A DNA stretch of 64,000 nucleotides from Polyangia bacterium (lineage in GTDB: Bacteria; Myxococcota_A; Polyangia; Fen-1088). Position numbers and translations under genes: made by a program. The stretch lies in contig DATATI010000095.1 in assembly GCA_036268875.1 (NCBI GenBank), positions 1 through 64,000 of the forward strand. Reading direction: 5' to 3'. The notes beneath the pieces were generated by a model, which made no database searches, was not told where the DNA came from, and worked only from the letters and a program-made list of their open reading frames with translations. Each line of letters starts with the position of its first letter. The stretch's first letter is position 1. Below, piece by piece: positions 38,370 to 44,240 of the stretch.

Positions 38370-39016
38370 CCGGCGAACGGCGCGGCGACCTGGCGGGCAG
38401 CGGTGGTGGGGTCGGCGGCTTTGTTCACGGCGGCGATGACCGCGGCAGCGGACGCGCCGGCGGCGGCGACGGCGGCGACGCTATCCACGGTGATGCCGCC
38501 GATGGCGACCACCGGAACGGAAACCGTGCGGCAGACCGCGGCCAGCGCTTCGACGCCGACGATCGGATCGGGGTTTTCTTTGCTGGCCGTCCCGAAGACC
38601 GGGCCGAAGGCGATGTAGTCGGCGCCGGCCGCAGCCGCGACACACGCCTGTTCGAAATTGTGGGTGGAGATCCCGATGACGATCGTCCGACCGGTTGAAC
38701 GCAGCACCGCCTGCGCGTCGGCGAGCGGCAGATCCTCCTGGCCCAGGTGCACGACGTCGGCGCCCACCGCCAGCGCAACGTCCAATCGATCGTTCACGCA
38801 AAACGGCACGCCGGCGGCGCGACACACCGGCAGGAGCAGCCGCGCCCCGTCGCACAGAGCGGCCGCATCGCTGCCTTTCGCCCGCAGCTGCAGGCAGCAG
38901 GGCCGCGCGGCCAGCAGGGCACGGGCGCGTGCCACCAGCGCCGCGCCACCGCCGATGCCGACTGGATCCGGGTTCACGTCGACGATGGCGTAGTACCCCC
39001 GCAGCGCGGTCGTCAT
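38366..39016 (-). CDS. thiE: Thiamine-phosphate synthase
   Basis: This 216-residue TIM-barrel enzyme couples HET-P... (thiazole phosphate) and HMP pyrophosphate to thiamine phosphate. Family marks are LQLRAKGSD near residue 41, [26 protein letters not shown] near 72-97 with the Mg-binding aspartates, and [12 protein letters not shown] near 136. Near residue 160 comes [13 protein letters not shown] 39016 begins the domain. The frame stays open far upstream across uvrB, but that is the uvrB antisense frame. It starts only 18 bases from the divergent uvrB start. No other thiamine gene and no TPP riboswitch is visible here. Confidence 0.93.
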
Positions 39017-39034
39017 CGCGTACACTATAGCGCC

Positions 39035-41035
39035 TTGCCCACGCCGTTCCGCCTCCAGACCGAGCTGCGCCCGATGGGGGACCAGCCGCGCGCCATCGAC
39101 GAGCTCTGCACCGGCGTCAAGCGCGGCGATCCGTCGCAGGTGCTGCTGGGGATCACCGGCAGCGGCAAGACGTTCACCGTCGCCCACGTGGTGGAACAAA
39201 TCCAGCGCCCGACCCTGGTCATCGCCCACAACAAGACCCTGGCGCACCAGCTCTACGGCGAGTTCAAGGCGCTGTTCCCCGACAACGCCATCCACTACTT
39301 CGTCAGCTACTACGACTACTACCAGCCGGAAGCCTACGTCCCATCGACGGACACGTACATCGAGAAGGATTCGCTGATCAACGAAGAGATAGACCGCATG
39401 CGCCACGCCGCGACGTACGCGTTGCTCACCCGGCGCGACGTCCTGATCGTGGCGTCGGTGTCTTGCATCTACGGCATCGGCGCGGCGGAGGCGTACCTCG
39501 GCATGAAGATCGATCTCGCCCGCGGCGTGGAGGTGCGGCGCGACGCCGTCCTGCGCCGTCTGGTCGAGATTCAATACGAACGCAACGACGTCGATTTTTC
39601 GCGCGGCACGTTCCGGGTGCGCGGTGACTCGGTGGAAATTTTCCCCGCTTACGAGCGCGAAAAGGCCATCCGCATCGAATGGTGGGGCGACGAGATCGAG
39701 ACCATCTCCGAGGTCGATCCGCTGCGCGGCAAGGTCCTGCGCAAGGTCGACGAGGTGTCGATCTTCCCGGGCTCGCACTACGTGACGCCGGCCGATCGGC
39801 TGACCAAGGCGATGGCCGGGATCAAAGAAGAACTGCGTCCGCGCCTGATGGAGCTCAAGCAGCAAAACAAGCTGGTGGAAGAGCAGCGGCTGCAGCAGCG
39901 CACGCTTTACGACCTCGAGATGCTGGAACAGATGGGTCGCTGCAAGGGGATCGAGAACTACTCGCGCCATCTGTCGGGCCGCGCGCCGGGCGAGCCGCCG
40001 CCCACGCTGCTGGATTACTTCCCGAAGGACTACATGCTGTTCGTCGACGAATCGCACCAGACGGTGCCGCAGATCGCCGCCATGTACAAAGGCGACCGCT
40101 CGCGCAAGGAAACCCTGGTCGAGTTCGGCTTTCGTCTGCCGTCGGCGCTGGACAATCGGCCGCTGCGTTTCGACGAATGGGAGGCGCGCGCGCCGCAGAC
40201 CGTGTACGTGTCGGCCACGCCGGCCGACTATGAGATGAGACAGGCCCAGGGCGTGTTCGTCGAGCAGATCATCCGCCCCACCGGTCTGCTGGATCCGGAG
40301 ATCGAGGTGCGGCCGGTGGGCTCGCAGGTCGACGATCTGCTGGGCGAGATCCGCGAGCGGGTGAAATCCGGCGAGCGCGTGCTGGTGACGACGTTGACCA
40401 AGCGCATGGCCGAGGACCTGACCGAGTACTACACCGAGCTGGGCGTGCGGGTGCGCTATCTGCACTCGGACATCGACACCCTGGAACGCATCGAGATCTT
40501 GCGCGACCTGCGCCTGGGCGAATTCGACGTGCTGGTCGGGATCAATTTGCTGCGCGAGGGTCTCGACCTGCCGGAGGTGTCGCTGGTGGCCATCCTCGAC
40601 GCCGACAAGGAAGGCTTCCTGCGCGCCGAGCGCTCGCTGATCCAGACCATCGGCCGCGCCGCCCGCAACGTGCACGGCAAGGTGATCATGTACGCCGACC
40701 GCGAGACCGACTCGATGAAGAAGGCGCTGGACGTGACGGCCACCCGACGGAGGACGCAGGCGGCGTACAACAAGGAACACGGGATCACGCCGAAGACCAT
40801 CCAGAAGGCCATCGCCGACCTGGCGGGCACCGCGCAGGACGACTTCGTCGATCTCACCAAGCCGCTCAAGAAGTCGAAAACCTCGGACATCCCGCTCGAG
40901 GAACTGCCGCAGATCCTGTCGGCGATGAAAAAAGAGATGTTCGATCTTTCGGAGGCGCTGGAGTTCGAAAAGGCGGCGGTCATCCGCGACAAGATCAAAG
41001 AGCTGGAGGAAGTCCAGCTGGCCGTCTCTGGATAG
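39035..41035 (+). CDS. uvrB: UvrB, excinuclease ABC subunit B
   Basis: This 666-residue helicase-like subunit of nucleotide excision repair has Walker A GITGSGKT (residues 39-46), the damage-verifying beta hairpin [10 protein letters not shown] (about 92-101), DESHQ and the later helicase motifs [14 protein letters not shown] and QTIGRAARN. The C-terminal UvrC-binding UVR motif ends near the stop ([14 protein letters not shown]). TTG 39035 is chosen because it sits at the family N-terminus ([14 protein letters not shown]); the open frame upstream is antisense to thiE. There is no ribosome site before the TTG, and a TACACT/TATAG-like sequence lies 10-15 bases upstream, so the message may be leaderless. 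Confidence 0.96.
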
Positions 41036-41060: not shown

Positions 41061-41678
41061 TCAGTCGGCGGCGAACAGCAGGCGCCAGATCGGCGTCCCT
41101 TCGTCCACGCACTGGCGCTCGCGGCGCGAACAGGCGGCGTAGGGATTGCCGCGATGGAAGCTCCACGGGCCGACGACGTTGCGCAGCCGGCCGGCGGGCT
41201 CGCCTTCCAGCGTGGCCATCGCTTCCAGGGCGATGGCGAAAATGTCGGTCTGCACGAAGATCTCGCCACCTGGAGTCAGCGCCGCCACCATGTCCGCGGC
41301 CAGCCCGGCCGAGACCACCCGCCGTTTGTGCTGGCGCGACTTCCACCACGGGTCGGGGAAGTTCACGAAGAACCGCCGCACCGACGCCGGCGCGAACAGC
41401 CGCGGCATGTCCACCGACATGTTGGCGAAGACGCTCTCCACGTTGGGCAGGCCCTCGGCCCGGCAGGCTTTATTCGCGCGAGCCACCACCTCGCGCCGGA
41501 TCTCGACGCCCACGCAGTGGCGTTGCCGATCGGCGCGGGCGCGATCCATCAAGAAGTGCGCCTCGGCCGAGCCGAGCTCGACCTCGAGGTCGCTGCCGGA
41601 CGGCGCCAACACCGGCGCTACGTCGATCTCCAGCAGATCGGACTTCAGCGGGTTGACGTGCTGGCGGACGCGGCGCAT
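41061..41678 (-). CDS. trmB: tRNA (guanine-N7-)-methyltransferase
   Basis: This 205-residue methyltransferase forms m7G46 in tRNA. The SAM site (LEVELGSAEAHFL, about residues 31-43) is slightly unlike the usual glycine-rich loop. The family signature NFPDPWWKSRQHKRRVV (about 110-126) and QTDIF near 145 are intact. It lies 21 bases downstream of the transaldolase-like gene and is the last gene of the leftward rpmH-yidC operon as far as can be seen. Confidence 0.92.
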   Translation of the reverse strand: MRRVRQHVNPLKSDLLEIDVAPVLAPSGSDLEVELGSAEAHFLMDRARADRQRHCVGVEIRREVVARANKACRAEGLPNVESVFANMSVDMPRLFAPASVRRFFVNFPDPWWKSRQHKRRVVSAGLAADMVAALTPGGEIFVQTDIFAIALEAMATLEGEPAGRLRNVVGPWSFHRGNPYAACSRRERQCVDEGTPIWRLLFAAD

Positions 41679-41699
41679 GTGATGAAAAACAACCGCCGT

Positions 41700-42323
41700 T
41701 CAAGAACGGGCCGCGTCGGCGAGCGCGCGCCGATCGCCAGCCAGCAATCTCTGCAGCGCCGCGAAGACCACGCTGACCGCGTCAGCGCCGCCGCTGGCCG
41801 CCTCCAGCGCCTGTCCGGAGCGCGACAGCGGCCCCAAAAGCACGCTGGTCTCCCGCGCGTAGGTGCGGCGGGTTCCGTCGGCCATGCGCGCGGCGTTCAG
41901 CACCGGCCCTTCGCCCTGGCCATCGATAAATGCCGGCGAGACCCAGCGGGCGCCGGCCCGCGCACCCCGCTCGACGTCGGCGGGCGATCGGCAGTCGACG
42001 GCGTGCGGGGCCACCCCGCGGGCGGTGCAGCGGCTCATCGCTTCCCAACCGTCCGGGGTGGCGGGAAAGGCGGGCACCAGATTGGGCCCCAGGGCGGACA
42101 ACGCCGCGGCGTCGTCCAGCATGGCGGGCAGCCCGGCCGCCGCCCGCACCGACACGCTGACCGGACCCGAGCAGGACGCCGCGATGGCCTCCAGCAAGAC
42201 GCGGCGGCCGACGTCGTCCAGCGCCGCCAGCGCCGCTGGCGGCACGGTGATCCCGGCGATCACCCCACGCTTGCCTTCCTGCCTGATCTCGTCGAGGTCG
42301 CCGCTGTGAAGAAAGACCTTCAT
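41700..42323 (-). CDS. Fructose-6-phosphate-aldolase/transaldolase-like protein lacking catalytic residues
   Basis: This 207-residue protein aligns without gaps to the first 90 residues of small transaldolases (FSA/TalC), starting MKVFLHSGDLDEIR. The catalytic positions are all changed: Asp6 is His6, Asn28 of TTNPS is Pro28 in TVPPA, and the Schiff-base Lys85 of VVKVP is Ala85 in VPAFP. Later fold cues remain (AGARWVSPAF). It is therefore probably a non-catalytic relative with a binding or structural role, or a different chemistry. Its ATG overlaps the stop of the coiled-coil gene (ATGA), and trmB follows after 21 bases, so it belongs to the yidC operon. The gene is intact and codon use is like its neighbours. 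Confidence 0.75.
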   Translation of the reverse strand: MKVFLHSGDLDEIRQEGKRGVIAGITVPPAALAALDDVGRRVLLEAIAASCSGPVSVSVRAAAGLPAMLDDAAALSALGPNLVPAFPATPDGWEAMSRCTARGVAPHAVDCRSPADVERGARAGARWVSPAFIDGQGEGPVLNAARMADGTRRTYARETSVLLGPLSRSGQALEAASGGADAVSVVFAALQRLLAGDRRALADAARS

Positions 42324-42541
42324 CTCCCGCCGCGCTCGGGATCTTCGTAGTCCAGCGCCTCGAAGTTCAGCTCGGACTCGTCGACGGGCCCGGATTCTTC
42401 GCCAGCCTCGTCCTCGAACAGCAGCGGCACGTCTTCTTCTTCCAGGGACTGGCGCAGCGCCGCCACTCGGCCGGCGATCGCCTCCAGTCGTCGGCGCGAA
42501 TCGGCGACCGCGCGCTCGAGTTCGACCAACCGCTCACCCAT
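42320..42541 (-). CDS. Small coiled-coil acidic protein
   Basis: This 73-residue protein starts MGERLVELERAVADSRRR. A predicted helical coiled coil (about residues 2-33) is followed by a very acidic tail (EEEDVPLLFEDEAGEE, EALDYEDPERG). It is not a family I can name. ATG 42541 lies 37 bases after yidC; an alternative ATG at 42619 lies inside the yidC 3' end. Neither has a clear ribosome site. Its stop overlaps the next gene's ATG, so translation is likely coupled with the transaldolase-like gene. Confidence 0.6.
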   Translation of the reverse strand: MGERLVELERAVADSRRRLEAIAGRVAALRQSLEEEDVPLLFEDEAGEESGPVDESELNFEALDYEDPERGGR

Positions 42542-42578: not shown

Positions 42579-44240
42579 CTAGACGATCGCGCTGGCCTTG
42601 CGGTCGACGTGGTTGACATAGAGCTGCTGCAGGATGCCGATGAGGTAACTGGTCAGCATGTAAAGCGCCAGCCCGGCCGGCAGCACCAGCGAGAAGGCGG
42701 TGAACATGATCGGCATCATCAGCGCCATCATTTGCTGCTGCTGCTGGTCCGGCGACGCCGGCGACATGCGCATCTGCGCGAACATCACCCCGCCCATCAA
42801 GAGCGGCGTGATGTAGTAGGGATCCTTGGCCGTCAGATCGTGGATGTGCAGAATGAACGGCGACCGGTACAGCTCGACCGCATAGTTCAGCGTCGAGTAA
42901 AGGGCGATCCAGATCGGCATCTGGATCAAGCTAGGCAGGCAGCCCCCGAACGGCGAAACGCCGTGGGCCTTGTACAGATTCATGGTCTCGACCGACTGGC
43001 GTTGCTTGTCGTTCTCGTACTTCTTGCGGATGGCGGCCATCTTCGGGGCCAGCTTCTGCATCTTCTTCGCCGACAGCAACGAGCGCTGGGTCGGATAGAA
43101 CGTCAGCAGACGGATGAACACCGTCAGCAGGATGATCGCCAGGCCCCAGTTGCCGACGAACGATTGAAAGAACTTCAGCAGCGACAGGATCGGGCGCGAA
43201 AGAAAGGCCAGGTTGACGTCGATCGCTTCGTGCAGGCGCGCGTCCTCGCCGTTCGGGCTGACCTTTTCCAGGTCCTCTCGGATTTTGGGGCCGGCAAAGA
43301 CGATGAACGGATAGGTGGTCGAGGCGTGCGGCGCCACCGTGCGCTCGCCGAACAGCAAGAAGACGTCACCGATGTCCGGGGCCGGCGACGTTCCCGCGCA
43401 GGTCCGCTCGCGCGGCGGCGATTCAGGAAAAGGAACGGCGGCCAGCAAAAAGAACTTGTCGTCGGTGCCGGCCCAAAGAACGTTGCCGCCCTTTTCCAGG
43501 CGCTCCTTGGCCACCTTTTCGACCGAACGCCGTTCGGCTTTCTCGCCCACCTCGCAGATGACCGACGCCGGGTTGGCCGAGCTGCCGGAAAGGAAGCTGC
43601 CGCCCTTCTGGTCGGGATTCTGATGACCGTAGATGTGCAGGCCAAGGTCATGATCGACCGGCTTGTCGGTCTTGTTCTCGACGGTGACGTCCAGCAATAA
43701 GCGATACGACTCCGGTTCGGCGCGGTACTTCTTCTCGATCCGCACGGCGTCGCTCACGAACTCAAAGGCGACGGTGTCGGCCGCCGGACGCGTGACGGTC
43801 CAGGCGCCGTCGGAAGGCCTGGCGAATCCGGCCTTGGGGAACTCCGTGCGCAAAGGAGAAAAACCGCTCGCGCTGGTGGTGATGAGCTCGAGGCCGCTCG
43901 ACGGGTCGCCCTTGCGCATGAGGTACTTCGGCGCGCGAAGCTGCGCTTGGCGCAGGGTTCCTCCGTGGCTGGATAGGACGAAGCGCACGGCCGGAGTGAT
44001 GAGCTCGACCAGCTCTTCGGGATGATCGGCGGCGGCCACTTCCGCGCCGGCACCTCCAGCGGCGGCGGCCGGGCCCGGCGCCGGGACGCTGCTGGGCGCG
44101 GTGCCGGCCGGTGCGATCGACGGTGACGACTTATCGGCCCTGGGCGCGGGCGTGGGAGCGGTCGGCGGCGGGAAGATCTTCATCCAGGCGAACAAGATCC
44201 CGACGCAGATAACGATGGCGATGACGACCCGCTTTTCCAT
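42579..44240 (-). CDS. yidC: YidC membrane protein insertase
   Basis: This 553-residue inner-membrane insertase has a first transmembrane segment at residues about 5-20, a Pro/Ala-rich linker and the large periplasmic P1 beta domain (about 75-345). The conserved five-helix core follows, with LLKFFQSFVGNWGLAIILLT near 355 and the membrane-embedded PSLIQMPIWIALYSTL near 460. The end of the last helix is followed by a short basic tail. It helps insert and fold membrane proteins with or without SecYEG. It starts six bases after yidD in the standard rpmH-rnpA-yidD-yidC order. Unlike many bacteria, the next gene is not jag/khpB. Confidence 0.97.
   Translation of the reverse strand: MEKRVVIAIVICVGILFAWMKIFPPPTAPTPAPRADKSSPSIAPAGTAPSSVPAPGPAAAAGGAGAEVAAADHPEELVELITPAVRFVLSSHGGTLRQAQLRAPKYLMRKGDPSSGLELITTSASGFSPLRTEFPKAGFARPSDGAWTVTRPAADTVAFEFVSDAVRIEKKYRAEPESYRLLLDVTVENKTDKPVDHDLGLHIYGHQNPDQKGGSFLSGSSANPASVICEVGEKAERRSVEKVAKERLEKGGNVLWAGTDDKFFLLAAVPFPESPPRERTCAGTSPAPDIGDVFLLFGERTVAPHASTTYPFIVFAGPKIREDLEKVSPNGEDARLHEAIDVNLAFLSRPILSLLKFFQSFVGNWGLAIILLTVFIRLLTFYPTQRSLLSAKKMQKLAPKMAAIRKKYENDKQRQSVETMNLYKAHGVSPFGGCLPSLIQMPIWIALYSTLNYAVELYRSPFILHIHDLTAKDPYYITPLLMGGVMFAQMRMSPASPDQQQQQMMALMMPIMFTAFSLVLPAGLALYMLTSYLIGILQQLYVNHVDRKASAIV

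Follow-up and report, generated by a model that had tools for sequence, protein, structure and literature searches.

A small-transaldolase barrel without its Schiff-base lysine between yidC and trmB, a pseudoenzyme that probably died in place

Introduction

Can the role of a catalytically dead enzyme be read from the genes that surround it? This question is raised by a locus in the 64,000-nucleotide stretch of Polyangia DNA analyzed here (the window), in which a gene for a protein of the transaldolase/fructose-6-phosphate aldolase (FSA) type, lacking the Schiff-base lysine of its family, lies between yidC and trmB. We compared the protein with its canonical homologues, followed the same locus through the genomes of the family and weighed what its rate and mode of evolution tell about a remaining function.

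Results and Discussion

The locus consists of the following genes, with residues numbered after E. coli FsaA throughout:

41700..42323, minus strand: predicted pseudoenzyme gene of the small-transaldolase/FSA fold without Lys85, 207 aa (H6, P28, S59, A85, H107, V109, A131)
42320..42541, minus strand: short coiled-coil gene upstream of the pseudoenzyme gene, ATGA coupling, start inferred from relatives
42579..44240, minus strand: yidC, upstream neighbour (Pfam 60KD_IMP, 1.7e-54; YidC_periplas, 4.1e-21; synteny)
41061..41678, minus strand: trmB, tRNA guanine-N7 methyltransferase type, downstream neighbour (Pfam Methyltransf_4, 5.8e-31; synteny)
38747..41035, plus strand: uvrB, named from sequence (73–84% tblastn identity, same place in relatives)

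The first-pass annotation had described the gene as intact, translationally coupled and placed between yidC and trmB, and the open reading frame, its ATGA overlap with the stop of the coiled-coil frame and both neighbours bear this out; 21 bp separate its stop from trmB. Further upstream follow yidD and rnpA, named from sequence and from tblastn matches at the same place in relatives, and at the other side uvrB, convergent with trmB, marks the end up to which the locus is conserved in relatives, its true start perhaps lying further downstream than the frame given here. The coiled-coil gene likely starts with the Met at 42541 (MGERLVELE...), which aligns by eye with MVERLSEL... of the coiled-coil gene in the related genome G006, and not at the frame start at 42619, which would overlap yidC. 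Fast-evolving short coiled-coil genes also follow yidC in the relatives L060, L067, L054 and L055, with or without a transaldolase, and a C-terminal motif like SDxWEIxLxNEEGK is common to those of G002 and G006 and absent from that of the window. A spurious frame can be ruled out by the codon-position GC of 41700–42323 (0.76/0.60/0.88), a coding-frame pattern, and an assembly or sequencing error by independent metagenome-assembled genomes with orthologues at the same place. The plus strand holds a 398-aa open frame (41154–42350) that covers the pseudoenzyme gene completely, and the end of trmB as well, in antisense, and its codon-position GC suggests the antisense shadow expected of GC-rich genes.

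The window protein matches TIGR00875 (fructose-6-phosphate aldolase) over residues 1–194 with E=2.1e-16 and PDB entry 1vpx with E=1.8e-15, and judged by these matches its homology to the FSA/TalC family is confirmed far beyond chance. Its 60 bits do not reach the TIGR00875 equivalog cut-off of 245.95 bits, and its 20.7 bits against Pfam TAL_FSA fall under the 27-bit cut-off of that family, marking the protein as aberrant. An AlphaFold2 model built from the window protein and 27 relatives predicts that it still folds as a transaldolase barrel, with pLDDT 90, pTM 0.85 and eight strands in (beta/alpha)8 barrel order, a confidence that is favoured by the alignment of family members used as input. 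Best PDB match by both Foldseek and VIA-align was 3s1w (Z 27.6, rmsd 2.6, 204 residues), with which other family structures tie, and at Z about 27 to small transaldolases the model agrees with the fold named in the first-pass annotation.

In a gapped alignment with E. coli FsaA and homologues from the class, the window copy shows the exchanges D6 to H, N28 to P and K85 to A already reported from an ungapped comparison, and the loss goes further: T27 is changed to V, E59 to S, N107 to H, T109 to V and F131 to A, and at the phosphate site R134 falls into a gap, S166 is P and R168 is S. All these sites are invariant in the 47 canonical class members of the alignment. Lys85, the Schiff-base lysine on strand 4, is present in 47 of 47 canonical proteins, but is replaced by Ala in the window copy and by Arg in the orthologues of genomes G001 and G011. 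The only lysines of the window copy are K2 and K18, on the first strand and the first helix, which rules out a substitute for Lys85 so far as the sequence allows, such a lysine being what the first-pass annotation had named as evidence against its reading. As Lys85 is absent, no other lysine appears to replace it and most donor- and phosphate-pocket residues are gone, the assignment as a pseudoenzyme is well supported, and on the residues present the protein cannot perform lysine-based aldol chemistry.

A tyrosine at position 131 is the mark of FSA. Position 131 is Phe and position 59 is Glu in the class homologues, as in small transaldolases, versus Tyr131 and Gln59 in E. coli FSA, and together with the known subfamilies (PMC7092467) this suggests that the protein probably descends from a transaldolase and not from a strict F6P aldolase. 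Metabolite sensing, which had been proposed as a role, fares differently among the copies: the window copy is unlikely to sense sugar phosphates, its phosphate-site residues being lost, and the copy of G001, which retains D6, T109, F131, R134, S166 and R168 despite K85R, may do so.

To place the gene in its family we used 18 genomes with yidC, in part of which the region downstream of yidC is readable. Wherever this is the case the order yidC, trmB and convergent uvrB is conserved, and yidC and trmB are retained in all 18 or nearly all genomes. Four of them hold a transaldolase-family member between the two genes, namely the window genome (G000, K85A), G001 (K85R), G011 (K85R) and G006, whose copy is intact (D6, N28, K85, E59, F131, R134 and S166 kept); the gene without Lys85 (lysine-less below) is thus not unique to one genome. 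In G006 the coiled-coil gene lies directly 5' of the intact enzyme, and in G001 trmB overlaps the stop of the gene by ATGA (junction GCGATGAGGGTG). The order yidC–coiled coil–X–trmB, whose conservation had been suggested as a check, therefore recurs in G006, but there X is a canonical enzyme, and 13 of 17 relatives have yidC beside trmB without this gene or any FSA match between them where the contig permits a look.

As G006 has a canonical transaldolase at this very position, the yidC/trmB neighbourhood is older than the loss of catalysis. The location is inherited and gives no specific indication of a role with YidC or TrmB. That the protein acts as a partner of either one in membrane insertion or tRNA modification is suggested by gene order only, and with the canonical enzyme of G006 and the 13 relatives in which both genes do without it, we regard such a partnership as extremely improbable. 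We find no support for the first-pass proposal that the fold was repurposed for a part in RNA modification or membrane insertion, the locus predating the loss of catalysis and the gene having been lost repeatedly. In other families trmB lies at most 1.5 kb from a canonical copy at no fewer than nine loci (L006, L008, L010, L011, L023, L024, L026, L089 and L095). Across several families of the class (L074–L098, L002–L030) a small transaldolase is often found at most 1.5 kb from trmB, an old linkage.

A profile of the three lysine-less copies scored 301–343 bits on themselves and at most 196 bits on anything else from the 318 class genomes. The first-pass annotation had called for a search for relatives lacking Lys85; this gave G001 and G011, and a phylum-wide profile search of 379 genomes added none at E<=1e-54, a threshold too strict to reach divergent independent losses. 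The single window protein had no matches among GTDB contigs, which is due to the lack of exact peptide words and not to absent relatives. A viral scan with a single canonical protein gave no matches, and one with the family alignment gave viral homologues that were used as alignment depth only. A divergent FSA-type group (L030 of G028 and similar copies in family f11) lies on a long branch and reaches about 25 bits against the window protein.

The three copies have in common the loss of K85, N28 and E59 and the exchange of N107 to His. Their C-termini end earlier (192, 193 and 207 aa versus 214 aa in canonical proteins, that is 7–22 residues), which suggests a changed assembly in comparison with the decamer and its C-terminal helix swapping. 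All trees tried separate them from the rest by a single branch, with 94 SH-aLRT support and 86/85 in a mixture-model tree, the latter becoming weaker with rows left out and the long branches calling for caution, and their monophyly has moderate support. A tree of YidC plus TrmB puts their genomes into one six-genome clade (99 SH-aLRT) with G006 outside. The other three clade members, G003, G008 and G007, have no transaldolase gene at the locus; in G003 and G008 a coiled-coil-like frame precedes trmB, and in G007 (L056, 1640–1760) a deletion scar between yidC and trmB joins the first codons of the gene to the start of trmB. What is left in G007 is ATGAGGTTCTTCGAG, which corresponds to the start of the gene in G001 (ATGAAGTTCTTCGTC) and is followed by trmB (spacer ...GCC ATG AGG TTC TTC GAG CGG CGA CGATGA GAG... 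versus ...GTC ATG AAG TTC TTC GTC GAC... in G001). Such repeated loss in close relatives, including the scar, speaks against the protein being important to YidC or TrmB. The locus thus presents a graded series from the intact enzyme (G006) over K85R in a largely preserved pocket (G001) and K85R with more losses (G011) to the strongly eroded window copy and finally the deletion with a scar (G007).

The lysine-less copies also differ from canonical ones in their rate of evolution. Pairs of canonical copies show 62–85% identity where TrmB shows 38–71%, and pairs of lysine-less copies 32–41% where TrmB shows 64–72%; for G006 versus L006 the values are 71% for the transaldolase and 41% for TrmB, for the window genome versus G001 35% and 64%. 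Relative to trmB the canonical copies are slow, and the lysine-less copies outpace both yidC and trmB by far. Pairwise dN/dS, a rough measure here with dS near saturation and with the trmB comparisons involving G006 left out, is about 0.5–0.8 for the lysine-less copies and 0.24–0.44 for yidC and trmB of the same pairs. Composition has drifted as well, towards Ala (21%) and away from Lys (1%). At the changed sites their mean BLOSUM62 scores relative to G006 are -0.33, -0.07 and 0.11, values that were reached in 0 of 100–200 neutral simulations (about -0.6 to -0.8), which started from the G006 gene with the alignment treated alike. Constraint on these copies is relaxed and non-zero, acting on the protein now or at least until recent times, though some of the conservative-substitution signal may stem from the time before catalysis was lost.

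These data bear on three further explanations for the open frames. In the first the barrel is a retained pseudoenzyme, binding a ligand or a partner such as an active transaldolase paralogue, with selection acting on that role. It would account for a frame intact in three diverged lineages, for substitutions more conservative than in the neutral simulations, for the structural residues retained (G20, G24, G54, P55, S113, G124, S129, P130, Y156 and G180), for the confident predicted fold and for His107 in all three copies, and the pocket of G001 is compatible with binding without catalysis. Against it stand the very fast evolution, the window copy without phosphate-site residues and the absence of the gene from three of the six clade members, and apart from His107 the three sequences reveal no newly conserved motif on the surface or in the pocket, so that we consider a retained role possible but rather unlikely. 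In the second explanation the frame is kept mainly to feed ribosomes to trmB, through coupling and the avoidance of polarity, the protein itself being of little import. The ATGA upstream together with the short gap to trmB in the window and the trmB overlap in G001 fit this, as does a substitution-only simulation at GC 0.75–0.80 and 30–35% identity, in which 8–17% of the runs stayed free of stops per lineage; open frames alone are thus weak evidence for protein function. As the conservative substitutions stay unexplained and relatives do without a gene there, coupling to trmB appears doubtful as the main reason. The third explanation is a different enzyme with new chemistry in the old pocket, using His107, which replaces an invariant Asn in all three copies, or His6, which replaces Asp in the window copy. 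His6 is not found in G001 or G011, a second conserved residue fit for catalysis did not emerge, and the copies differ from each other at pocket positions 26, 28, 59, 109, 131, 134 and 166, unlike a maintained active site, which makes new chemistry very improbable.

We also asked which other transaldolases the genomes possess. The window genome has two intact ones, a classical enzyme (C45) and an FSA-type enzyme (C83), each of which retains D, N and K, and G001 and G011 have others too. G006, intact at this locus, shows only FSA-type matches and no classical transaldolase match, as would fit redundancy as the cause of the enzyme's death; this cause is plausible from correlation only, as G004 and G017 likewise lack a classical match, perhaps due to genome incompleteness.

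Conclusion

The speed of change, the graded erosion of the pocket and the repeated loss argue that a probably redundant enzyme died in place, and we take it as probable that the gene is drifting fast under relaxed, non-zero constraint and is being lost. In the ancestral genome of this myxobacterial family the place between yidC and trmB would have been occupied by a small (subfamily IV, TalC-type) transaldolase, and the lineage of G000, G001 and G011 would have lost Schiff-base catalysis in place through the changes at K85 (to Arg or Ala), N28, E59 and N107. This probably happened once and probably as other transaldolases made the enzyme redundant, the copies of today evolving fast, being repeatedly deleted and presumably having little function left. 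Several observations run against death in place: three copies have kept intact reading frames through a very long divergence, with substitutions more conservative than simulated, they share an identical His107, the AlphaFold fold is confident, though the family alignment favours that, the long branches leave monophyly moderately supported, and redundancy is a correlation. It seems unlikely to us that after the loss of the Schiff base the barrel was retained to bind a new ligand or serve as a scaffold, with the intact orthologue surviving in a sister genus; if true, the locus would document how a pseudoenzyme is born by a natural pair of states, one before and one after the event. The one-locus series allows one to ask whether catalysis was lost before or after ligand binding, and bears on whether proteins of this kind acquire a new role on the way to being lost. 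It is also a warning that function is not readable from a gene neighbourhood older than the change itself.

In the literature searched, with subscription journals mostly outside its coverage, we found no description of a transaldolase/FSA pseudoenzyme or a lysine-less transaldolase. Enzyme folds kept without a catalytic residue are known from bacterial pseudokinases (PMC12599244). The window protein resembles pseudoenzymes in general in having an enzyme fold and no catalytic residue, and differs in its rapid loss among relatives and in a non-catalytic role that is only putative. With E. coli FsaA (1l6w) it shares the fold and the reference numbering at 23% identity, its lineage having the transaldolase pattern at positions 59 and 131. 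Closer are the small (subfamily IV) transaldolases TM0295 from Thermotoga maritima (1vpx), 3s0c from Thermoplasma acidophilum and 3r8r from Bacillus subtilis, which it resembles in length class and over the whole-chain barrel (Z about 27, rmsd 2.5, 24–28% identity), with common descent through G006; unlike them it has lost the Schiff-base lysine as well as Asp6, Asn28, Glu59, Phe131, Arg134 and Ser166. Its top fold match, the engineered Lys86Ala transaldolase from T. acidophilum (3s1w), carries the same Lys-to-Ala change, but as a single man-made exchange, whereas the window copy is natural and most of its pocket is altered too.
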